Below, piece after piece: positions 3,665 to 62,473 of a DNA stretch of 64,000 nucleotides. The translations under genes and the position numbers were made by a program. This DNA is from an uncultured Vicinamibacterales bacterium (lineage in GTDB: Bacteria > Acidobacteriota > Vicinamibacteria > Vicinamibacterales > UBA8438), in assembly GCA_958295905.1 (NCBI GenBank), contig OY282382.1:5938367-6002366 (forward strand), written 5' to 3'. The notes beneath the pieces were generated by a model that had not been told where the DNA came from, did no database searches, and saw only the letters and a program-made list of their open reading frames with translations. Within the stretch, counting starts at the first letter, position 1, and the number at the start of each line of letters is the position of its first letter.

Positions 3665-3785
3665 TCGACCTGCTCCTGAATCACAAACAAGATGAGTCCG
3701 TTCCCTGCCCGCCCACCCGTGCCCTCACTTGGTCACGAATGACGTAATCACCGCCCGCAACGCATCCACCCGGCCCGTGAGCCAG

Positions 3786-3952
3786 GGACATCCCACGCTG
3801 ACGGCGCGTGACGGCTCGCCCCCGATTCGAGGGATCGCCACCGTCTTGCCGATCGACCGGCGCCGCGGGAACCCGCGATGCCGCACGTCCGGAGCCCCAG
3901 GACCCGCCACGATTCCGCCTGCGCACGGTGGTAGCGGAGCGTGGGACGGTCT
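3786..3952 (+). repeat. MITE-like repeat family A, copy 1
   Basis: About 167 bp bounded by imperfect terminal inverted repeats (GGACATCCCACGCT at left, AGCGTGGGACGGTC at right). The interior shares the blocks CCCCCGATTCGAGGG and CGCACGTCCGGAGCCC with copies at 32791, 51936 and 62166. No coding capacity is conserved among copies. Confidence 0.8.
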
Positions 3953-4031
3953 TGCCCGTGAGCCGATCCGCCTTGGCGGTGACCAGCATTACTCCCCCCG
4001 CCGCCACGATATCATCGCGGTGATTACTCCT

Positions 4032-4186
4032 ATCAGTCCGCAGCAGAAGTTGCGCTGCATCCGGCCGGGACCGTACTCGACCCAAGAACGTGTCGTACAG
4101 CGGTCGAAATCGCCGAAATCTGACCGATCCGAGCCGTTTCCCCACCACCGCCGACGCGCCGCGGAGTCTTGCCACGCGGGCTGCTA
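4032..4186 (-). repeat. MITE-like repeat family B, copy 1
   Basis: About 155 bp, inverted relative to the copy at 47447-47610. The shared core includes GGGACCGTACTCG and AAGAACGTGTCGTACAGCGG. The ends form an imperfect inverted repeat related to AGCAGCCCGTGGCAAAA, flanked by CTA/TAG bases. Confidence 0.7.
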
Positions 4187-29733: not shown

Positions 29734-30771
29734 ATGGCTCGCACCATCCTCAACGTTGTCTGCCTGGTCGTGCTGCTCGGCACGATCACCCTCTCTCAAC
29801 CGCATGCCGACCCGGCGTCGGCGATGTCCACCGCGGCGCTGAAGTTCCTCGACAGCCTGAACGACGAGCAGGAAGCCGCGGTGCGGTTTCCCTTCGACGG
29901 CGAGGACCGATTCGACTGGCACTTCATCCCCCGGGAGCGCAAGGGCGTCGCCCTGAAGACGATGACCGGATCGCAGCGGGCGGCCGCGCTCGACCTGGTG
30001 CGGACGGGCCTGAGCGAGGAAGGGTTCACGAAGGCGGAGATCATCCGTCAGCTCGAGCAGATCCTGTACAACCAGGAGGGCCGCGACATTCGCGACCCGG
30101 ACCTCTACTTTTTCATGATCTTCGGCGAGCCGGGTGACGGCGCCACCTGGGGTTGGCGCTACGAAGGGCACCACATCTCGCAGAACTGGACGATCGTCAA
30201 CGGCGCCGCGATTTCCGCCAGCCCCCAGTTCTTCGGCTCGAATCCGGCCGAGGTGCGCGACGGGCCGCGGCAGGGCCTGCGGGTCCTCGGCAGCGAGGAG
30301 GACGAGGCCCGCGCGCTGCTCGGGTCGCTGAACGAGTCGCAGCGGGCGGCGGCCCTGCTCTCGAAAGAGGCTCCCAGCGACATCCTGACCCGGTCGCAGC
30401 AGAGGGTCACGCTGCTCGAGGACTTCGGGGTGGCGCACCGGGACCTCGACGCGGACCAGCAGGCGGCGCTGTGGTCGATCATCGAGGAGTACGCCTCGGC
30501 CCAGCCCGCGCCGATCGCCGAGGAGCGGCTCGCCGGCGTCCAGGACGCCGGACTCGACGGCATCCGGTTCGCCTGGATGGGCGGCGACGCCCGGGGCGAG
30601 CCCCACTACTACCGCGTCCAGGGACCGACGTTCCTGATCGAGTACGACAACACGCAGGGCAACGCCAACCACGTCCACAGCGTGTGGCGCGACTTCAACG
30701 GCGACTTCGGCCGCGACCTGCTGGCCGCGCACTATCGCCAGTACGACCACGGCACGCGGAACGCGGACTAG
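29734..30771 (+). CDS. DUF3500 family secreted protein
   Basis: Product of 345 aa. The ATG at 29734 has GGAGG seven bases upstream and begins a signal peptide (ARTILNVVCLVVLLGTITLS). The mature protein shows the DUF3500 pattern: FLDSLNDEQEAAVRFPF, then DWHFIPRERKGV, LYFFMIFGEPG and GWRYEGHHISQNWT. It ends with FLIEYDNTQGNANHVHSVWR. DUF3500 proteins are exported, widespread in Acidobacteriota and Planctomycetota, and uncharacterised. The histidines and acidic residues in WRYEGHHIS and NHVHSVWRDFNGDFG could bind metal. A tandem hairpin repeat starts at the stop codon. Confidence 0.85.
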   Translation: MARTILNVVCLVVLLGTITLSQPHADPASAMSTAALKFLDSLNDEQEAAVRFPFDGEDRFDWHFIPRERKGVALKTMTGSQRAAALDLVRTGLSEEGFTKAEIIRQLEQILYNQEGRDIRDPDLYFFMIFGEPGDGATWGWRYEGHHISQNWTIVNGAAISASPQFFGSNPAEVRDGPRQGLRVLGSEEDEARALLGSLNESQRAAALLSKEAPSDILTRSQQRVTLLEDFGVAHRDLDADQQAALWSIIEEYASAQPAPIAEERLAGVQDAGLDGIRFAWMGGDARGEPHYYRVQGPTFLIEYDNTQGNANHVHSVWRDFNGDFGRDLLAAHYRQYDHGTRNAD

Positions 30772-30956
30772 GAGTCTGCGCCGTAGAACGGGGCGCGGAC
30801 TCCTGGAGGGTTGGTTGGGCGGTGAGCGGAGCCGCAGGCGACGCTCTCCGGGGCAGGCGTCTGCGCCGTAGAACGGCGCCGACGCCTGGAGGGTTGGTTG
30901 GGCGGTGAGCGGAGCCGCAGGCGACGCTCTCCGGGCTGGGAGTCTGCGCCGTAGAC
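30771..30956. repeat. Tandem hairpin-containing repeat after the DUF3500 gene
   Basis: Two ~83-bp units plus a partial third. Each begins with a hairpin of the type GTCTGCGCCGTAGAACG pairing with CGGACTCC, followed by GAGGGTTGGTTGGGCGG and GAGCGGAGCCGCAGGCGACG. The first hairpin starts at the stop codon (30769-30771), so it may serve as a terminator. Related hairpins lie at 40656 and 41742. Confidence 0.75.
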
Positions 30957-32642: not shown

Positions 32643-33059
32643 ATACCCCGGCGCCGGTCGCTCCCCGGATTGACACCGGTTGACCGCGCCCCCATGGGCC
32701 GCCGTCGTCGCGCCTGGCCCACCGACGCCCTACCGTCCGCCGGCCCCTTCCGTCCCCAGCCCCCCGCCAGCCGTTGCGGCACGCGGTTCCAGGGGCATCC
32801 CACGCTGACTGCGCGTGACGGCCCGCCCCCGATTCGAGGGGTCTCGACCGTCTTGTCGACCGGCCGGCGCCGCGTAAGACCCACGATTCCGCACGTCCGG
32901 AGCCCCAGGACCCGCCACGATGCTGCCTGCGCACGGCGGTGGCGGTAGCGTGGGATGGTCCTGCACGCGGTTCGCCGGCCGGTGGACGCGAACCCGGCCG
33001 GGCGCATAGAATGGAGGGCGGGCGCCCCCCGCGCCCGAGGCAATCCCGCGGTATCGCAT
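32643..33059. other. Intergenic stretch with a family A repeat and the tRNA-His leader
   Basis: Holds copy 2 of the ~170-bp element. A possible -10 box (TAGAAT, 33007-33012) lies about 48 bp before tRNA-His. No gene is seen. Confidence 0.5.
32791..32962 (+). repeat. MITE-like repeat family A, copy 2
   Basis: About 172 bp in the same orientation as copies 1 and 4. Left end GGGGCATCCCACGCTGA, right end AGCGTGGGATGGTCCT. The interior retains CCCCCGATTCGAGGG and CCGCACGTCCGGAGCCCC. Confidence 0.85.
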
Positions 33060-33135
33060 GGTGAGTGTAGCTCAGTGGTAGAGCGCCGGACTGTGGCTCC
33101 GGATGTCGCGGGTTCAACCCCCGTCACTCACCCCA
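33060..33135 (+). tRNA. tRNA-His (anticodon GTG)
   Basis: The acceptor GTGAGTG (33061-33067) pairs with CACTCAC (33125-33131). An extra G at -1 (33060) faces C73, the His identity pair. The anticodon loop CTGTGGC gives GTG, the T-loop is GGGTTCAACCCC, and CCA is encoded (33133-33135). Confidence 0.95.
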
Positions 33136-47446: not shown

Positions 47447-47610
47447 TAGCAGCCCGTGGCAAAACTCCGCAGCGCGCCAGCACTGGCCGGCGGTGCGCGG
47501 AAACGGCTCGGATCGGCCGAATTTCGGCGATTTCGACCGCTGTACGACACGTTCTTGGGCCGAGTACGGTCCCGGCCGGATGCAGCACAACTTCTGCCAC
47601 GGACTGCTAG
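47447..47610 (+). repeat. MITE-like repeat family B, copy 2
   Basis: About 164 bp. The terminal inverted repeat is AGCAGCCCGTGGCAAAA at left and TTCTGCCACGGACTGCT at right, with two mismatches. CTAG flanks each end, which suggests a TA or CTAG target duplication. The core matches 4032-4186 in inverse orientation. Confidence 0.8.
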
Positions 47611-50955: not shown

Positions 50956-51195
50956 GTGCTGACCGCTTACGTCGTACTCCAGCTCCCGGGTGCGGCTGGA
51001 TCGCGTCCCCGATATAAGGACGACGCCGAGTGCCTGACCGCGCCCACGCCCTATAGCAGCCTGATGGCGATGGCCCACGAGGTCCGCAAGCCGATGTTCC
51101 ACCTCCGGGCCGCCGAACGGCGCGCTCGGCGGCCACATCTTACGGTGCAAGACCACTACCACAATTTCGAGACCATCGCCAACTCAATAGCCGCC
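50956..51195 (+). pseudogene. C-terminal remnant of a ParA-like ATPase
   Basis: The frame reads CLTAPTPYSSLMAMAHEVRK and PMFHLRAA. After a one-base shift it reads DGALGGHI, and after a compensating shift TVQDHYHNFETIANSIAAKC. This matches the end of small ParA/Soj-type proteins (MAHEARKPMF.L.PADGAIG.H...V..CY.DF..LA). The Walker-A half is absent. Confidence 0.55.
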
Positions 51196-51935
51196 AAGTG
51201 TGACGTGAATCACTCCGCGGGGTCGCCGACCTGTAGCGTGATATCGACAATCCATGTGCAACTTCCGATCGTTTGCAAAAGTACGGGTGACACCGTGTCA
51301 GCAACACCACACATGGCCGCTTCTTCGAGCAGAGCCCGGACGCACCGACGCGCGGCCAAATCGGCAGCGCAAAACCGTCGCCGTCCTCCACTCCCGCACA
51401 ATCGCGCGCGCCGCTTCGTAACCGACTTCGACCTGCACCTTGTCCGACCCGTCGTTCCGTCTCGATGCTTGCGCACCGCCTGCGCCACTCCCGCGGCCAC
51501 CCCGGCCGAGCGCTGTAGCCGAACGCGTGAAGCAATCGATTGGAGCCCGGCGCCGACCCCAAGATGCTGTGGCCCCCAGGGGCATCGTCCGACCGACAGC
51601 TTCGGCGCGTGCTCGCCGTCGTCAAGCCGCGTTGCTTCGCTCCGCCTCCGCTTCGCGGTGCTCTCCGCCTTGGCAGACCGCTCCGCGCCCGCCTGTCCAG
51701 ACTGCGCATTCATGACACACATTTCGGGCGACTCTCGACCAGAGCACCCGAACGGTCTCGTCCTCTACGCCCACCGCCGCAGCCCTTCCCGCACGGTCTC
51801 CTCGGCCTCGTACCGAAAGCCCTTCATCGCCCGGCCGCCGAACGTCTGGCCCCCTCACCGCCCGCGAAGCCCCGCCGCCCGACACCACCAGCAAGATCTG
51901 TAACCCAATCGCCTTCCCCGGATGGCCCGGATGGC

Positions 51936-52105
51936 AGGACCATCCCACCCTCCGCCACCGCCGTGCGCAGGCGGAATCGTGCCGGGTCCTGGGGGCTCCG
52001 GACGTGCGGAATCGTGGGTCTCACGCGGCGCCGGCCGGTCGGCAAGACGGTGGCGACCCCGCGAATCGGGGGCGAGCCGCCACGCGCAGCCCGCGTGGGT
52101 TGCCC
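51936..52105 (-). repeat. MITE-like repeat family A, copy 3 (inverted)
   Basis: About 170 bp in the opposite orientation to the other copies. AGGACCATCCCACCCTCC marks the right end of the element on this strand. The core shows GGGGGCTCCGGACGTGCGGA and CGAATCGGGGGCGAGCC. It lies about 160 bp before the helicase start. Confidence 0.8.
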
Positions 52106-52263
52106 CTGCCCGGATGGTCCCGGATAGTGCGCCACGCCCGATTTTGTTGTAGTATTCTACGATCACGCGTTTGCCGGACCGCGAAGACACGGCGTTGACG
52201 ATCGTTACCCCGGATCTCCCGCGTCCGCCGTGCTCCCGTCTCCGTGCCGGACCGGAAGGAACA

Positions 52264-54411
52264 ATGCCGCCGATGCCAACCACACGGGCCCCCGCTGAAT
52301 TCTCATCACCAGCCCTCCCCGCTGTCCGGCCTCTATATATGCTGCCCGGCGATCCTATCGCCGAAGAAGTACTCATTCCCGCGTTTCGCAACGCCGTCAA
52401 CGTCGACTGCATGACCGGGTTCTTTTCCAGCACAGTTCTCGCAGATCTCGCTCCCGGCCTCGCAACCTACATCAGTGTCACCCGAAACACTTTTCGTCTC
52501 CTCATCAGTCCCATTCTCAGCCAAGAAGACCAAGCCGCAATCAGGAACGGCGTCGGGTGCCCCGAAACTCTTGCCCGTGCTTTTCTTGAAGACATGATAA
52601 TTACCGAGGATCTCCTCCAGCAGCACACTCTCAAGTGTTTGTCTTGGCTATTAGCAGCAAAGCGCCTCGAAATCCGCGTCGCGCTGATGCGTGACGCACT
52701 TTTCCATCCGAAGGTGTGGCTCTTTCGTCTACGTGAAGGCCTGCTCGCAGTGCACGGTTCGAGCAATGCAACGCTAGCCGGAATCCGAAAGAACGTCGAG
52801 CAAGTCGCCGTATCCCAATCATGGTCCGACTCGAACCAGCTTTATGTTTCCACCACGTTACGTAATCAGTTCCGACGCCTATGGTCGAGTGAAGATGACA
52901 ATTGCCTTATCGTGCCAATGCCGCAAGCGGTTCAAGAACACTTGCTGCGGAATTATCGCCCCGATATTCCCCCGACCGAGGACGATCTGCGTGCGCTCTA
53001 TCGCAAAGCCACGACGCTCGACGAGAACGCCCGCCACGGCACGCCGATCCGCCGCCCACAATTCGCCCTGCCGGCAGGGCTCCAATTCCACCACGGCAAG
53101 TTCGAGCATCAGGGCCGAGCCGTTGACGCTTGGTGCAACGCTGGCTACCGTGGTGTCCTTGAAATGGCTACCGGTTCCGGCAAAACAATTGCCGCAATGA
53201 TCTGTGCGCACCGACTCTACGCAAGGCGCAAACCGTTACTCATCGTCGTTGCAGCCCCTTACGTTCCTCTGATCCAGCAGTGGTCTGACGAGATTGCTCC
53301 CTTTGGACTCACTCCCCTGAACTTGACGGCCCTCGCCGGAAAGCGCGGACGCGCACAACAACTCGGTCGGCTAAAACGGCGGCTTGCGTCGACGCGCAGC
53401 GATGTAGAGATCATTGTTGTGTCTCATCGCACGCTCTGCGACCGCAAGTTCCACGCCGAAATCCAGAAGATAAATTGTCACACGCTCCTTGTTGCCGATG
53501 AAGTACACAACCTTGGAAGCGAGGGGTTCATCATCGATCCACCCTCGTTCTTCGACGCGCGCCTGGGCCTTTCGGCCACGCCGGTACGTCAGTACGACGC
53601 AGACGGAACCGTCGCCATGCTCGCGTTTTTCGGCCCCGTAGTCTTCAGCTTCACGCTTGCCGAAGCCATTGGGCACTGCCTGGTTCCCTACGACTACTAC
53701 GTCCATCGCGTGGAGCTTACACCCAACGAAATGGACCTATGGAGCGAAATCACTTCCAAAATCAGAACGAATATCTGGCGCCAAGAGAACGGAAAACCGG
53801 ATGAGTTCCTTGTAAAGCTATTTCGAGATCGGCACGCAGTGCTGGAAAACGCCGAGAACAAGATTTGCGCCCTCGAAGCGGCTTTGCGACGCCACCGTCT
53901 CGACGATCTCCGGCACGCGCTCATTTATACTTCCGACAAGGCCCCAGAACAACTTATCCAGACCAACGCACTACTCCGAAAATGCGGTATTCCCTTCCAT
54001 CAACTCACCTACGAAGAGACGGCCAATCGCCGGGAGACCGCACGCATCATCAACGATTTTCGTGATGGAACATTGCGCGCCCTGACTGCCAAGCGCGTAC
54101 TCGACGAAGGCGTCAATATTCCGCAGGTTCAGCAAGCCTTTATACTCGCCAGCACGACCGTAGAACGCCAGTGGATACAACGACGGGGCCGCCTTCTGCG
54201 CACGTGTTCGGAGACCAACAAGACACATGCCGAGATTCATGACTTTATCGCCCTGCCGCCGAAAGCCGCGCCCCTCGACGACGAAGCGCGGGCGGTGATT
54301 CGCGGTGAACTGACACGACTTCAGGAGTTTGTAAAACTTGCACGCAACGTTGCGAGGCCAGGCGGCCCTCTAGACGTCACGCAGGAGCTACTCCGCACGG
54401 TCGTCAAATAG
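52264..54411 (+). CDS. PLD-like nuclease fused to an SF2 helicase
   Basis: Product of 715 aa. The ATG at 52264 has GGAAGGA just upstream. The N-terminal domain has a phospholipase-D-type half site: HPK (His148, Lys150) followed by HGSSNATLAG (about 165-174). The SF2 helicase then shows ATGSGKT (302-308), DEVH (412-415), LSATP and WIQRRGRLLR (motif VI). Such proteins occur in several restriction and phosphorothioation loci. Here the gene starts an operon with an 80-aa protein and a DndD-like ATPase. Likely roles are strand separation and cleavage, or remodelling of DNA during modification or restriction. GC is clearly below the backbone. Confidence 0.8.
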   Translation: MPPMPTTRAPAEFSSPALPAVRPLYMLPGDPIAEEVLIPAFRNAVNVDCMTGFFSSTVLADLAPGLATYISVTRNTFRLLISPILSQEDQAAIRNGVGCPETLARAFLEDMIITEDLLQQHTLKCLSWLLAAKRLEIRVALMRDALFHPKVWLFRLREGLLAVHGSSNATLAGIRKNVEQVAVSQSWSDSNQLYVSTTLRNQFRRLWSSEDDNCLIVPMPQAVQEHLLRNYRPDIPPTEDDLRALYRKATTLDENARHGTPIRRPQFALPAGLQFHHGKFEHQGRAVDAWCNAGYRGVLEMATGSGKTIAAMICAHRLYARRKPLLIVVAAPYVPLIQQWSDEIAPFGLTPLNLTALAGKRGRAQQLGRLKRRLASTRSDVEIIVVSHRTLCDRKFHAEIQKINCHTLLVADEVHNLGSEGFIIDPPSFFDARLGLSATPVRQYDADGTVAMLAFFGPVVFSFTLAEAIGHCLVPYDYYVHRVELTPNEMDLWSEITSKIRTNIWRQENGKPDEFLVKLFRDRHAVLENAENKICALEAALRRHRLDDLRHALIYTSDKAPEQLIQTNALLRKCGIPFHQLTYEETANRRETARIINDFRDGTLRALTAKRVLDEGVNIPQVQQAFILASTTVERQWIQRRGRLLRTCSETNKTHAEIHDFIALPPKAAPLDDEARAVIRGELTRLQEFVKLARNVARPGGPLDVTQELLRTVVK

Positions 54412-54421
54412 GGAGGAGCCC

Positions 54422-54664
54422 GTGCCACTCAACGACCGGAAGATCATTTCAATTATTCTTGAGGAATGCGACAAGGTCGACGCAAGATGTGCCGGATACG
54501 AGGCAGAACTCCAGGAAGTGATTACGGAGGTCATTGCGTTGGAGCGTCAGCATCGCGTGAGGGCCGGGAGCATCCAGAAGAAAATCAATGACAAGTTCAA
54601 TGCCACGGCCCGCTTTCTAGCTGAACACCGAAGGGCCACAGCGCAAGAGGATATCGCTCAATGA
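54422..54664 (+). CDS. Small coiled-coil protein between helicase and SMC ATPase
   Basis: Product of 80 aa from GTG 54422, with GGGAGGA seven bases upstream. The chain is almost wholly helical and charged (YEAELQEVITEVIALERQHR, INDKFNATARFLAEHRR). It starts 11 bp after the helicase and overlaps the ATPase start by four bases. It may be a linker or regulatory subunit; it does not look like DndE, which has an RHH-like motif. No family is recognised. Confidence 0.6.
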   Translation: MPLNDRKIISIILEECDKVDARCAGYEAELQEVITEVIALERQHRVRAGSIQKKINDKFNATARFLAEHRRATAQEDIAQ

Positions 54665-56760
54665 AGCTGATTAGCGCGGACTTCCAGAACTTCCGCCTGT
54701 TGCGCGACTTGCGTCTGGATTTTTCTGTCGACGACAATAGGGTGCTAACGGTAATTCGCGCCGAAAACGAGACTGGGAAGACCACCATTCTGACTGCGCT
54801 CCAATGGGCTTTCTACGGCGATAGGGCGTTACCGGGAGGAGGCCCCGGTTTTCGCCTGCATCCCCTTGACTGGGACGTGTCTGAGAGCAGTCGCGTTCCA
54901 GTTGTTGTGACGGTCGACTTCGAAACAACGAACATACGCCGCAGTCAGCGTCGGACGATAAGGACGAAACGCCTTTACCGGGTCGTCAGATCCACGGAGG
55001 AGCGGTTGAATGGCACCGGTTGGGAGCGCCATGCTTCAATGGTAAAGCTGTTTCACGTCACCGACGCCGGCTACGAACCGTTGGCCCCCCCCGAGGCACA
55101 GATCCACGAAGAGCTACCGCCGGATCTGCGCGAGGTCTTTTTTACTGACGGCGATAGGGCACTGAGCTTTATCGAAGCCACGGCTGGTACGGCGACCAAG
55201 CGCGAACGTGTTCAGAAAACAATTCGCTCGCTTCTGGGTCTCGGCGTAATTGAGGATGCGCTCAAACATGTCAAGAAGGCTGGCTCCGAGATCAATGCCG
55301 CCGCACAGCGCATTGACTCTGGCCACAAGATGACTGATGTCGTCACCCGCCTACAAGAAGTGGAGCGTGACGCGGCTGGACTGGAAACCGAGATCGAGGA
55401 CGCCAAGAATCAAGCTGTGCGCCTGGACGAAGCCATCGCGGAGAATCAGAAACGCATCGAGACGGCCTTGATTAGAGGCAACCGCGAGGATCTCCAAAAG
55501 CAAGTCGAACAAACCGCGCGGCAAATGAAGAAGGTCGACGAGCAACGCCAAGCCGCCGCCAAAGAGCATGTAGCGTTGTTTAGAAGTTGGCATCTATCGA
55601 GGGACCTTCTGGACTCGATTTTTGAGAGTGCATTCGCGAAACTGAATGACCTGCACGATAGGGGGAAAATCCCAAACACGACCATACCGGTACTTGAGGA
55701 GCGCTTGAGCAACACCCTGTGTATTTGCGGCGAATCCCTGAACGACGCCGAACCAGATGGCAAGAGACGTAGACGCCATATTCAGCGCATGATCGACGGC
55801 AGTCGGGCTGCCGACGAATTGCAGGTTGTCGTTACCGATCTGTATTATGGTGCTCGCGCCTTCCGACACAACCGGCGCGCCGATGATGAGCGCTGGCTTG
55901 ACCGGTATTCCGCCATAGCCCCTCGCAGAGACGAACTAGAGGAGATGGCCGAGCACCATGGCAAGCAGAGGAGGGCATTGGAAACACGCCTTTCCGAGAT
56001 TGAGGATTCCGGCCTCCAGGATTTGCGGAATGCACAACGCCACTATCGCGAGCGGCGAGACGGCTTTCATGCCATGCGAACTCGCGGCGAAACGAGGCTG
56101 GAGGGCTTGAGAAGTGACCAAAAGAGCCTGACCCGGCAGCGTGACAATCTTCTGAAGGAGGCAAAAAAAGGAGCGCTCGTACTGGCCCAATTGCACGTGA
56201 CGCAAGACGTAACCAGCGTGCTAAACAGCGCGTATCAGCGGATGGAAAATGAAGAACTCGCTAAGGTAAGTGACTCAATGAACGCTGTTTTTCTCAAGAT
56301 GATTGGCTCCGACCCAGAACAGGGATCGATTATCAACGAGACAAGAATCAGCGACGAGTTTGACATTATCGTCTTCGGTCCCAACCGTCACCGATTGAAT
56401 CCGGACCGCGATCTGAACGGTGCCTCACGTCGGGCTTTGACCATGGCCTTTGTACTTGCCTTGACGAAGGTAAGCGAGGTCGAAGCACCCAACGTAATCG
56501 ACACGCCTCTCGGAATGATGAGTGGGTACGTCAGAAGATCCGTTCTACGAACCGCGATAGACGAGAGCTCGCAACTCATCCTGTTCTTGACCCGTTCGGA
56601 AATAGCCGACTGCGAGGAAATCCTTCTCTTCCCAACGGCATGGCCCGACGCGGTGGCGAATTCGTCGACGAAATGGTCCGTTCTATTGGGTGTCGCGATC
56701 GCGCGGAACAACTCGATTTTTTCCTGGCACGAAAAATCCTCCACGAGACGGAAGACGTAA
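54661..56760 (+). CDS. DndD-like SMC/Rad50-type ATPase with replaced C-terminus
   Basis: Product of 699 aa. The opening MKLISADFQNFRLLRDLRLD and Walker A ENETGKTT (35-42) resemble DndD; the first Walker glycine is Ala. Long coiled-coil arms flank a zinc-hook-like TLCICGESL (Cys354, Cys356). The C-terminal ATPase half has GASRRALTMAFVLAL (signature) and PNVIDTPLGM (Walker B, about 612-621). Homology stops at IADCEEIL (about residue 655). The last ~45 residues are antisense to the neighbouring DUF262 gene and are not DndD-like. DndD ATPases act in sulfur insertion into DNA; a truncated C-terminus may impair this. Confidence 0.72.
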   Translation: MKLISADFQNFRLLRDLRLDFSVDDNRVLTVIRAENETGKTTILTALQWAFYGDRALPGGGPGFRLHPLDWDVSESSRVPVVVTVDFETTNIRRSQRRTIRTKRLYRVVRSTEERLNGTGWERHASMVKLFHVTDAGYEPLAPPEAQIHEELPPDLREVFFTDGDRALSFIEATAGTATKRERVQKTIRSLLGLGVIEDALKHVKKAGSEINAAAQRIDSGHKMTDVVTRLQEVERDAAGLETEIEDAKNQAVRLDEAIAENQKRIETALIRGNREDLQKQVEQTARQMKKVDEQRQAAAKEHVALFRSWHLSRDLLDSIFESAFAKLNDLHDRGKIPNTTIPVLEERLSNTLCICGESLNDAEPDGKRRRRHIQRMIDGSRAADELQVVVTDLYYGARAFRHNRRADDERWLDRYSAIAPRRDELEEMAEHHGKQRRALETRLSEIEDSGLQDLRNAQRHYRERRDGFHAMRTRGETRLEGLRSDQKSLTRQRDNLLKEAKKGALVLAQLHVTQDVTSVLNSAYQRMENEELAKVSDSMNAVFLKMIGSDPEQGSIINETRISDEFDIIVFGPNRHRLNPDRDLNGASRRALTMAFVLALTKVSEVEAPNVIDTPLGMMSGYVRRSVLRTAIDESSQLILFLTRSEIADCEEILLFPTAWPDAVANSSTKWSVLLGVAIARNNSIFSWHEKSSTRRKT

Positions 56761-57653
56761 TCGGACGGTTTTTCCTCTCGATTGGCATTCGATTGGATTT
56801 GCCGCCTCGTGTCGCGATAGAAGTTGCTCTTTTGGAGAAACCCGTATCGAGATTGAAAATAACAACGTGCGTAATCTGTAAATCGGGAACTGTCGCGAAG
56901 CTAGACATGAATGTTCTCGAGATTCTCATGGACGACATCACGCCGCGTGACGTCGTCGTCGGCATTGAAGTAGGAATACAGATGATTTCGGATCAGGTCG
57001 AGGTCGTCGAGGCGCTTGCCGCGGCAGTTTATCGTTTCGTACACGGAGTTCGGATCTACGAAATCGGGTATGTTTAGGCGTGCCACCTCGATCTTTTGCG
57101 TCAAGAAGTCAAAGAAACGGGCGGCCTTGTCGACGCCCATACCGTGGACGAAAGCGTCTATTTGGCGCCAAGCCAGCGTTAATTTTCCGTTCGCACCGAT
57201 GTTCCGTCCCCGAATCATGAGGTTGTATCGGGTCTTGTCGTCGCGTGGCGGCGTTACGCGGGGGGTCAAACGGTCGATGTTGCCGAGGGTATTGGAAGTG
57301 TTTTCAGCGATGTCAAACAGAACACGAAGAGCCAGATGCTCACGCCGGGAATCATTGTGCTCCGTGAACAGACGGCGGAGACACGCGCAAATCAGTGACA
57401 GTGTGACTATGCGTTGCTGTCCGTCGTTAATGCGCCATTGCCTCGGACCAGACTTGACGAGTATCACTGTGCCGAGGAAGTAACAGCGACGTTCAGCGCC
57501 GACCGCGTCGTTGATGTCTTGGAGGAGCTCGTCAACGTGCTCGGGCTTCCAGTCGTAACGCCGTTGGTGCCAGGGGACAGTGAAGAGGCCTTCGCAGATC
57601 AGGTGGAAGAAGGTGACTGCACTGGACTCAATGACGGTTGGCTGGCCAGTCAT
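56634..57653 (-). pseudogene. DUF262 (GmrSD/SspE-like N-domain) gene with in-frame stop and 3' deletion
   Basis: The start overlaps the dndC stop (ATGA). The DUF262 core is clear: VPWHQRRYDWKPEHVDELLQ, DINDAVGAERRCYFLGTVIL, WRINDGQQRIVTLSL. A TAG at 56901-56903 ends a 250-aa product. The same frame then continues with conserved family sequence (FTDYARCYFQSRYGFLQKSN, FYRDTRRQI, FRLVEDFSCQEKIELFRAIA) to FATASGHAV at 56634. Beyond that it runs into the tail of the DndD-like gene. The C-terminal HNH domain expected of GmrD/SspE-type proteins is missing. Confidence 0.75.
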
Positions 57654-58810
57654 GCTGACATGTGTTCCGGGTCTACGCCGACACTGGCGAGAAACGAGAG
57701 CCGGCCCTTTTCGCAGATACGGTCGCGACGCCAGATGTCGTCGATCACTTCGATCTCCGCCGACTGGACGAGCATCTCGCCGATCTGTTCTTCCAGCGCT
57801 CGGAGACGGTCGAGGATGGTCTGACGAACTTCAAGCGTGAAGGGGCCGAACACGCGGGTGCCATCGTCGCGCAGCTTGGTGCGGCCGTCGCGGCGGACGG
57901 GCAGGCGGTTGCGGTTGTCTTCACGCAGCGCGATCAGCCACTCGCGGAAGTCGGCGAGGGCTTCGAGCATGTCCTCGTCCTCGTGGCCGGCGTCGATGAG
58001 GCCGCGCATGCTTCTGTCCTTCTGCACGACCGTGCACGTCCAGCAGCCGAAGCGGGGGGACGTGGTGCCGCAAGACGGGGCGTCTTCCTTGCTGAGGACG
58101 AGCGGGCACTCGCCGCCGCCGGCGTTGCGGTACAGGGTGATCAGGTCGCGGTGGGTGCCGCCCCACGGCGGTCGGCGCTGCATCAGGATCTTCCACACGT
58201 CGTCGTCGCCCAGGTCGGCCAGGGGCGCGAACATGCGGCAGTCGGGAATGGTGCTGTGCGGGTTCATGGTCGTCGCGGTGACGCCCCGCTGCGTCATCGC
58301 GCGTCCGCGGGTCTGCGACTCGCTCTTGCGGGTGCCGACCAGCAGGACCGCGCGCTGGTGGGCGATCACGAGCTTGCGGATGAGGTCGTTGGTAGGAGCG
58401 ATCTTCATCCGGTCGGTGCACCAGCGGAAGTTGCGCGTCGGGGGGATGTAGCCGCGGCCGATGACGTTGACCCAGAACGTCTGGTCGATGCACGGCTCGG
58501 TCATCTTGACGGTGATCGGCAGGCCGGCGGCGCGGGCGGCCTCGCGGATGACCTCGAGACTCTGGCGCAAATGGCGGATGACGAGAGGCGATTCGACCAG
58601 CGTGTCGTTCGAGACGATGTAGATCGGCCGCCGAGATTCGCCGGGCGAGGCGGCCGCGGCGACCTCCCAGACGAGGTGGAGCAGCAGCGTGGAGTCCTTT
58701 CCTCCCGAATAGGCGACGATCCAGGGGTCTTCGTGCTCCCTGGCGAACTCGGTGTACATCGTCTCGCGGACGGCGGCGAGACGGGCCGGAACATCGCTGC
58801 TGCTGGTCAT
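57650..58810 (-). CDS. dndC: DNA phosphorothioation sulfurtransferase DndC
   Basis: Product of 386 aa. The PAPS-reductase-like PP-loop is AYSGGKDST (33-41). Cysteines for the Fe-S cluster lie in [24 protein letters not shown] and [14 protein letters not shown]. DndC is an ATP pyrophosphatase/sulfurtransferase that takes sulfur from DndA and activates the DNA backbone. It overlaps dndA upstream and the DUF262 gene downstream by four bases each. Family spacing and motif order are normal, so it looks intact. Confidence 0.9.
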
Positions 58811-60033
58811 GCGACGCGAACGCCTCCTTCCGGGCCGCCGGGTGCCCCATTGTCGGATGTGCAAGGACCGCGCCACGCAGGCGACAGCGAGCGGAGCTCG
58901 GCGACGGCGCCGCGGATGCGCTCGACCGCGTAGTCGATCTCGTGCACGGTCGTGAAGCGGCCGAAGCTGAACCGCACCGAGCCGTGGGCCGAGTCGTCGT
59001 CCAGCCCCAGCGCCCGCAGCACGTAGGAGGGTTCGACCCGCGCCGACATGCAGGCCGAGCCGGTCGAGAAACCGATGTCCGGCAGGGCCACTATCAGCGA
59101 CTCGCTCTCCACGCAGGCGAAACCCAGGTTGACGATTCCGGGCACGCAACGGCTGCGGTCGCCGTTGATGAAGACCTGCTCGACGCACCGGAGCCGATCG
59201 ATGAAACGCCCTTCCAGACCGCGGGCGTGCGCCGCGTCCTCGCCCCGCCGCTTCGCCATCAGGCGCGCCGCTTCGCCCATGCCGGCAATCTGGTGCGTCG
59301 GCAGGGTGCCCGAACGCAGGCCGCGTTCGTGCCCGCCGCCGTGAATCTGGGGCTGTAATTGCGCGCGCGGCCGGCGTCGGACGTAGAGGGCGCCCACCCC
59401 CTTGGGGCCGTACATCTTGTGGGCGCTGAGGGACACGAAATCGACGGGCTGGCGCTGCATGTCGAGGGGGACACGGGCGGCGCTCTGGGCGGCGTCGACG
59501 TGGAACGGAATCCCGCGGTCGTGAGCGAGCCGGCCGATCGCCTCGATATCCGTGATGGCGCCGATCTCGTTGTTGACGTGCATCAACGACAGGAGCAACG
59601 TGTCGGCGCGCAATGCCGATTCCACCAGCTCGGGGGTGACTAGGCCGTCGGCTCCGGGCTCGATCCGGGTGACCTCGAACCCGCTGCGTTCCAGATGAAG
59701 GCACGAATCGAGCACGGCCTTGTGCTCGATGGCCGAGGTGACGATGTGGCCACCCCGCTCGCCGCGAGCGGCGACGGCACCCTTGATGGCGAGGTTGTCC
59801 GACTCGGTGGCCCCTGAGGTCCAGACGATCTCGCGCGGGTCGGCGTTGATGAGGTCGGCGACATGGACCCGCGCCTGCTCGACCGCCTCTTCGGCGTCGC
59901 GCCCGAAGCGGTGGAACCGCGAAGCGGGGTTGCCGAACACGCCATCCGGCCCGAGATAACGGGTCATCACGGCCACGACGACCGGATCGGTCGGCGTCGT
60001 CGCGGCATAGTCCATGTAGACTGGTGTCTTCAT
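58807..60033 (-). CDS. dndA: Cysteine desulfurase (DndA/IscS type)
   Basis: Product of 408 aa. The start [17 protein letters not shown] is typical of IscS/DndA. The PLP lysine is Lys206 in SLSAHKMYG, and the sulfur-accepting Cys328 lies in [18 protein letters not shown]. It releases sulfur from cysteine for DndC. Overlap with dndC (ATGA) and the absence of iscU or iscA support a dedicated PT role. The C-terminal ~20 residues are low-complexity. Confidence 0.88.
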
Positions 60034-60278
60034 GGCACGGCCCCGCTGTCCTCCCGGACATGCCGGTCGAATCACAATCAGGCATGATGATACCGCGTTC
60101 TGCACACAGCAGTACCCGAGGTGCGGGAGATCCTGGGTTACGCGGCGCTCAGGCCGGACAACGATTGCCCGCCGGGGGCCCGACGCGGCCGTCGCTCCGG
60201 CTCCCGCCACCTCAGACGACAGACTGCCGCGAGACGACGATCGAGCCCGTTGACGATTCACGCGAGCGAGCGGTGCCG
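60034..60278. promoter_or_regulatory. Divergent promoter region between dndA and the HNH endonuclease gene
   Basis: 245 bp separates the divergent starts. AT-richer bases at about 60065-60105 (CAATCAGGCATGATGATACC) could hold the dndA promoter. No operator palindrome is evident, and no dndB-type regulator is encoded in the window. Confidence 0.35.
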
Positions 60279-61205
60279 ATGACTCGTCAACGCCTTCTGA
60301 AGGCGCTCGAACGGCTCAACGTCTGGAAGCGGGGCAGCGACCGCGCACCGCACAAGCCGCTGCTCCTCCTCTGGGCGCTCGGTCGCATCAGACAGGGCGG
60401 GGGCCGGCTGGCATCGTACGAACAGGACGCCGAGGAACCGCTCAAGAAGCTGCTCAGGGACTTCGGTCCCCGGCGGAAGGTGCTGCATCCGGAGAACCCC
60501 TTCTGGCATCTTCAGACCGACGATCTCTGGGAACTGGATGCCGCACTCTCCTTCGCGCCGGGGCGTGGCCCGACGCGGAGCGAACTCGTTCGCCACAACG
60601 TCAGCGGCGGCCTGCCCGAGCCGTTGCACAGACTGCTGCAACGCGACTCCGAATTGCTGCGGGCGGCGGCAGATCTGCTGCTGTTCGGGCACTTTCCCGA
60701 ATCGATGCATGACGCCATCCGCGAACAGGTGGGGCTGCCCCGCAACTCGACGGCGGTGGTCCGCGAAGGGCGGTCACTCCCTCGCCGTCCGGGGCGAGAC
60801 CCGGACTTCCGCGACGCCGTACTGCGCGCCTACGAGCGCCAGTGCGCCGTCTGCGGCTTCGACCTGCGCATTGCAGACGCGTCGTTCGGTCTCGAGGCCG
60901 CGCACATCATGTGGCACTCGCACGGTGGCCCGGACGAGGTCCCGAACGGTCTCGCCCTCTGCACCTTCCACCACAAGGCGTTCGATCGAGGCGTCATCGG
61001 CCTTGAACCGGGGTCCGGCGAGTACCGTGTGCTGGTGTCCAACGAGCTGAGCGGCCAGAGTCAGGCATTCCGTGAAGTACTCGATCTGCGAGACAGGAAT
61101 CTCCGCCCGCCGCAAGAAGATGAACTCCAACCGGAGGTCGAGTACGTGGACTGGCATCGCCAACAGGTGTTTCGCGGTGCTCCGCGGAGCCGGCCGCAAC
61201 GCTGA
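60279..61205 (+). CDS. Phosphorothioate-reading HNH endonuclease (sulfur-binding domain plus HNH)
   Basis: Product of 308 aa. The N-terminal half ([52 protein letters not shown]) matches the sulfur-binding domain of type IV enzymes of the ScoMcrA group. The C-terminal half is an HNH nuclease: CAVCG (Cys189, Cys192), [30 protein letters not shown]. These enzymes bind PT-modified DNA and cut nearby. It is unusual next to PT-writing genes, since an active enzyme would attack the host's own modified DNA. ATG 60279 begins the conserved domain. Confidence 0.8.
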
Positions 61206-62060: not shown

Positions 62061-62165
62061 ACCGCTGCGTGCCGCCGGCGGACGCGCCCGGCCGGGCTCG
62101 CGCCGAGGACGCCCAACGGCCGGAGCGCCGCGGCGGCCTCCCCGGCGGTGCCTCGACCGTGCCCC

Positions 62166-62333
62166 AGGAGCATCCCACGCTGATTGCGCGTGACGGCTCG
62201 CCCCCGATTCGAGGGGTCGCCACCGTCTTGCCGACCGGCCGGCGCCGCGTGAGACCCACGATTCCGCACGTCCGGAACCCAGGACCCGCCACGATGCCGC
62301 CTGCCACGGCGGTGGCGGAGCGTGGGATGGTCC
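62166..62333 (+). repeat. MITE-like repeat family A, copy 4
   Basis: About 168 bp with the best-preserved ends: AGGAGCATCCCACGCT at left and AGCGTGGGATGGTCCT at right (one mismatch as an inverted repeat). The interior matches copy 2 closely. Confidence 0.88.
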
Positions 62334-62473
62334 TCGACGGTGCCCCGCGCCCGGCAGAGCGAAGCCGGTGCTTTCCTGTACACTGCTCCAGCCGGCGAGC
62401 GGCGCCGGACCGCCGATGGCGCCCCGCCCGCCGCGGCGGGCCGAATCGTTGCGCACGGAGTTCGACGCACGTC

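Follow-up and report, generated by a model that had tools for sequence, protein, structure and literature searches.

Family A is a short dispersed repeat with four copies in the window, the 64,000-nucleotide stretch of an uncultured Vicinamibacterales genome that was analysed here. The repeat is very probably a MITE and its copies are named accordingly in the following list, together with their target-site duplications (TSDs).

3783 to 3954, plus strand: MITE copy 1, left end at 3783; TSD CCCGTGAGC (9 bp) at 3774-3782 and 3955-3963
3783 to 3799, plus strand: left terminal inverted repeat of copy 1, CAGGGACATCCCACGCT
3938 to 3954, minus strand: right terminal inverted repeat of copy 1
32790 to 32963, plus strand: MITE copy 2; TSD CACGCGGTTC (10 bp) at 32780-32789 and 32964-32973
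51935 to 52108, minus strand: MITE copy 3; TSD CCATCCGGG (9 bp) in the minus-strand reading
62165 to 62335, plus strand: MITE copy 4; TSD GACCGTGCCC/GACGGTGCCC (10 bp, 1 mismatch)

All four copies, which the original prediction had grouped as one family, were recovered by a repeat search and by alignment. They are 88-93% alike in the ungapped repeat search, indels aside, and align across about 173 consensus positions. Their loci had been placed correctly, but the true ends lie a few bases wider than first proposed. The terminal inverted repeats are imperfect, measure 17 bp and have CAGGRSCATCCCACGCT as their full form; the shorter AGGACCATCCCACGCT initially taken for the repeat holds as the right-end form but not as the full one. 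The left end of the MITE is CAGGRGCATCCCACGCT and the right end is CAGGACCATCCCACGCT. The TSDs of the window copies, of 9, 10, 9 and 10 bp with one mismatch in copy 4, were read straight from the sequence.

Copy 1 precedes a predicted gene, with 134 bp between the copy and the gene's 5' end. Copy 2 lies upstream of tRNA-His (at 33061), 97 bp away, a helicase-type ORF near copy 3 starts at or after 52171, and an aceE-type ORF is located downstream of copy 4. The last three neighbours had been named rightly at the outset, and copy 1 too precedes a predicted gene. The window also contains a second repeat family, probably another MITE-like element, at 4030-4141 and 47499-47610 (112 bp, 93%, inverted). 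Moreover, positions 51000-61000 form a lower-GC island with PLD-type helicase, SMC-like ATPase, cysteine-desulfurase-like and PAPS-reductase-like genes (names by eye), which is perhaps a DNA-phosphorothioation or other defence cluster.

The concern that the four copies might stand alone did not materialise, as a genome-wide count revealed hundreds of further ones. In the 6.3-Mb host genome, the G+C content of which is about 70%, matches to the terminal repeat with at most one mismatch number 266 in forward and 262 in reverse orientation. The count is far beyond chance because there are 528 ends against 0 occurrences of a reversed control pattern in the same genome. A profile search of 1.65 Mb, sampled as stretches of this genome, returned 106 matches, 71 near full length and 35 partial; scaling the 71 near-full copies gives about 270 per genome, in agreement with the end count. 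When the profile was applied to the whole genome, 99 of 99 scored candidates matched, a floor of at least 99 copies. Both contig C1 and the 147-kb contig C2 hold MITE copies, the consensus of which is 173 bp long and non-coding.

Many copies bear the signature of transposition. Among 68 sampled both-ended copies, 40 have perfect TSDs of 8-10 bp (9-10 bp in 39 of the 40) and 52 have TSDs with at most one mismatch, whereas random re-pairing of the flanks predicts about 0.8 perfect TSDs in 68. Seven adjacent MITE pairs were found, all head to tail and most spaced by exactly one TSD unit; three of these pairs belong to copies of a single duplicated segment. Such tandem pairs, most of them separated by a single TSD copy, could be taken to mean that copies spread by segmental duplication or recombination and not by transposition, and a 5.15-kb segment with a tandem MITE pair points the same way. 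At L080-L081 (C1:37011-42162) this segment consists of a transposase gene, a LarB-like gene, the MITE pair and a citrate-synthase-like gene (names by eye). It is present at three sampled places in all (99.96-100% identity), with two more likely, probably five in total, and it ends in another dispersed repeat of about 183 bp. Nevertheless, almost every other copy is set in unrelated flanks and has a 9-10 bp TSD of its own, and such a mode of spread is scarcely credible for the family. The suspicion that duplication of flanking DNA explains the repeat was not borne out: only a few copies arise that way and the bulk have independent flanks. A derivative of about 72 bp, which has the ends of the MITE around a short interior of different sequence, was also observed beside a full copy (L046, 1447-1518).

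Divergence from the consensus is 4.9% on average and 1.8% at the minimum. Pairwise identity of the copies averages 91.5%, the nearest neighbour being typically about 95% identical, and the closest pairs, segmental and tandem duplicates aside, are at most about 98% alike. The commonest substitutions among copies are C>T and G>A. The family looks like the product of a past burst and not of present activity, allowing for a few recent moves, and it is probably not active now. The initial wording of an 'active or recent MITE' is thus kept for the MITE part, but 'active or recent' is weakened because, segmental and tandem duplicates aside, the sampled copies are no more than about 98% alike, each departs from the consensus by about 5%, and the search for a source transposase turned up no intact one.

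The placement of the copies was assessed with gene calls from a home-made codon-based caller. Sixty-three of the 68 sampled copies are intergenic, 5 overlap a predicted gene edge and none (0/68) is inside a gene, as against about 80% of random points that fall in coding sequence. For the 61 copies with two called neighbours, the setting is divergent in 35, co-directional in 20 and convergent in 6. Divergent genes border only 28% of intergenic length (p about 2e-6, a somewhat optimistic value since a few copies are segmental duplicates). With respect to the gene preceded, 41 copies are sense and 49 antisense, that is without bias. This distribution could result from selection against harmful insertions, from target preference or from both.

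The intergenic position of 63 of 68 copies and the excess between divergent genes, in addition to inverted ends able to pair, are also in keeping with a repeat retained upstream of genes for a regulatory role, as a structured RNA or DNA element (terminator, riboregulator or protein-binding site) and not mainly as mobile DNA. This had been put forward initially as a 'structured regulatory repeat'. However, RNA folding does not favour it: in an alignment fold of 54 copies, 0 of 41 predicted pairs showed compensatory change (covariation term -0.27). There was no Rfam match to the element, the two tRNAs being the only Rfam hits in the window. The lack of orientation bias argues against this explanation as well, as does the absence of the element from congeners, and the TSDs and a transposase-bearing relative account for the ends. 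A mainly regulatory nature is therefore very unlikely.

The MITE was absent from 27 confamilial genomes, i.e. two congeners and 25 others, by blastn and by profile; a 28-bp partial match, and nothing more, was seen in two confamilial genomes. In the syntenic interval of copy 2, from the upstream gene to tRNA-His, the element is missing in both congeners, the interval being otherwise too divergent for a clean empty site. A plasmid database gave no MITE match, and a pattern scan of 84,980 species genomes, a set from which records of the host genome may be missing, gave one chance match. Family A is a lineage-specific, orphaned MITE burst. Another repeat of about 165-190 bp, found at 30763-30955 of the window with a tandem pair at 30792-30955, has dozens of copies in both congeners and is genus-wide, unlike family A.

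The search for a transposase with the same ends was successful in two places, a relic in the host genome and an ISAs1 element in a distant relative. Searching for ends with A or T as the next base located the relic at C1:1594787, where a broken coding sequence comes after an exact left end. The relic peptide has a match at E 8.8e-5 to PF13808 (DDE_Tnp_1-associated domain), which is typical of ISAs1 transposases, though this match falls short of the curated cut-off. Compared with 396 genomes of the phylum, the same peptide matched a 613-aa protein in G347, a genome from another family of the phylum; there were 12 such matches, 75-76% identical across 68 residues. This protein is a fusion of an N-terminal DruA domain (PF14236, E 5.5e-19) to transpos_ISAs1 (NF033564, 149.5 bits for a cut-off of 70). 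It is encoded by an insertion sequence (IS) of 2,146 bp present in 12 copies. Perfect TSDs border 9 of the 10 copies checked; eight of these TSDs measure 9-10 bp and the ninth 13 bp. The 9-10 bp length is common to the MITE and to the G347 element. Relative to the G347 gene, the relic is missing the DruA part (its end is joined directly to the DruA-ISAs1 linker), has a changed frame and is cut short on the 3' side. The parent type is thus known via a relative in another family that is 76% identical to the relic.

The ends of the MITE and of the G347 element agree at 16 of 17 positions on the left and at 16 of 17 on the right, left pairing with left and right with right. At the right end the match reaches 31 bp at 84% (blastn E 2e-5). 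The in-register subterminal match was equalled by 46 of 5000 shuffles; on the left, the subterminal similarity taken by itself falls short of significance, with 298 of 1000 shuffles doing as well, and the MITE interior, at about positions 50-140, has no convincing similarity to the G347 element. G347 contains 25 repeat ends, nearly all in these ISs, with no two facing ends at MITE distance. A tandem arrangement like that of the MITE pairs was seen once for the IS, with 10 bp between two ends. ISAs1 elements in general (ISfinder) have CAGGG-type ends and 8-10 bp duplications, the comparison made here being with the G347 element only. With respect to ISAs1-family ISs (NF033564; PF13808), the G347 relative has a clear ISAs1 transposase gene, MITE ends and TSDs of the same length, whereas the MITE is without a gene and the G347 transposase additionally bears DruA.

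In the host genome, no PF13808 match at E <= 0.001 and no intact ISAs1 gene were found; the assembly is rated 98.11% complete, and there may still be an intact source that it misses, or one that this strain alone has lost. Only the relic matches the ISAs1 part of the G347 protein strongly in the host genome. Several other candidate parents were dismissed. Of 68 host matches to PF01609 transposases, 30 were fetched, and in none did the repeat form the element's own ends. One apparent candidate was L024, but there an IS1182-like IS (491-2243, name by eye) sits inside a MITE copy. Low-scoring PF13808 matches have no matching ends nearby, and by eye their ORFs do not look like ISAs1. The remaining host matches to the G347 protein concern its DruA part and belong to IS4/IS50-type elements, which were rejected as parent for their different ends.

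These elements form two IS groups of 5 and 6 copies, exemplified by L233:1229-3571 and L240:1775-4066, whose transposases are DruA fusions of IS4/IS50 type and whose ends start with CTAG. Being intact and multicopy, they might be thought to have mobilised the MITE: they carry the same kind of DruA domain (PF14236), their copies are near-identical and TSDs are visible at some. However, neither CTAG...CTGCCCTTGCCCCAGA nor CTAGCACTCAATCACAGTTGACAC, the ends that they carry, is related to CAGGRSCATCCCACGCT, and their catalytic part is IS4_3, not ISAs1, which makes this origin highly improbable.

Taken with the terminal inverted repeats, the TSDs, the high copy number, the lack of coding capacity and the intergenic placement, the transposase-bearing element with the same ends supports the MITE reading first proposed. 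With high confidence, the family consists of non-autonomous MITEs, 173 bp long, that derive from an ISAs1-family IS and were probably mobilised in trans by a source that has since decayed. They would have kept the two terminal repeats of the IS and a short subterminal sequence but not the transposase gene. The enzyme supplied in trans would be an ISAs1 transposase, most probably a DruA-ISAs1 fusion of the G347 kind, which would bind the CAGGRSCATCCCACGCT ends, and insertion into staggered cuts of 9-10 bp would generate the duplications. Multiplication to about 270 near-intact copies presumably took place in a lineage not shared by the two sampled congeners, the surviving copies being left almost only between genes and more often between divergent ones. 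The transposase source, for which we infer the intact ancestor of the relic, would then have decayed to the deleted, frameshifted and truncated relic found at C1:1594787, and movement appears to have ceased. It has also been considered that DruA-ISAs1 transposases strongly target upstream intergenic DNA and that the MITEs are now widespread spacers or promoter parts between divergent genes, shaping expression after transposase loss; this further proposal is rather unlikely.

Bacterial MITEs exceeding 100 copies are already known: N. gonorrhoeae has more than 120 of the Correia element and Photorhabdus luminescens has 711 of ERIC (PMC10969869). Like family A, the Correia, ERIC and Chunjie elements are short, non-coding and mostly intergenic, with inverted ends, TSDs and tens to hundreds of copies (PMC10969869), but family A differs from them in sequence and, as far as tested, in parent family. 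ISAs1 is unmentioned in the text of that review. In the same way, Anabaena sp. 90 has 147 complete or partial MITEs, of which 132 are intergenic, as well as an ISAs1 element (PMC3542288). No evident similarity of those MITEs to the IS ends of their own genome was reported (PMC3542288), whereas here the parent type was found through a relic and a distant relative. A literature search of partial coverage found no paper on a comparable ISAs1-derived MITE family and none combining DruA, ISAs1 and transposase.

Family A belongs to a well-understood kind of element, and what is unusual is the clear parent type in a distant relative. One genome has the IS but no MITE-length copies, another has the MITE but no intact IS, and a relic with its own internal deletion completes the set; with these, a MITE family can be dated in its birth, its burst and its orphaning. 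In addition, DruA, a domain familiar mainly from the Druantia defence system, is linked to two transposase families, the ISAs1 and the IS4/IS50 type. In other respects the element is an ordinary piece of mobile DNA, and its annotation should say so and not call it a regulatory RNA.
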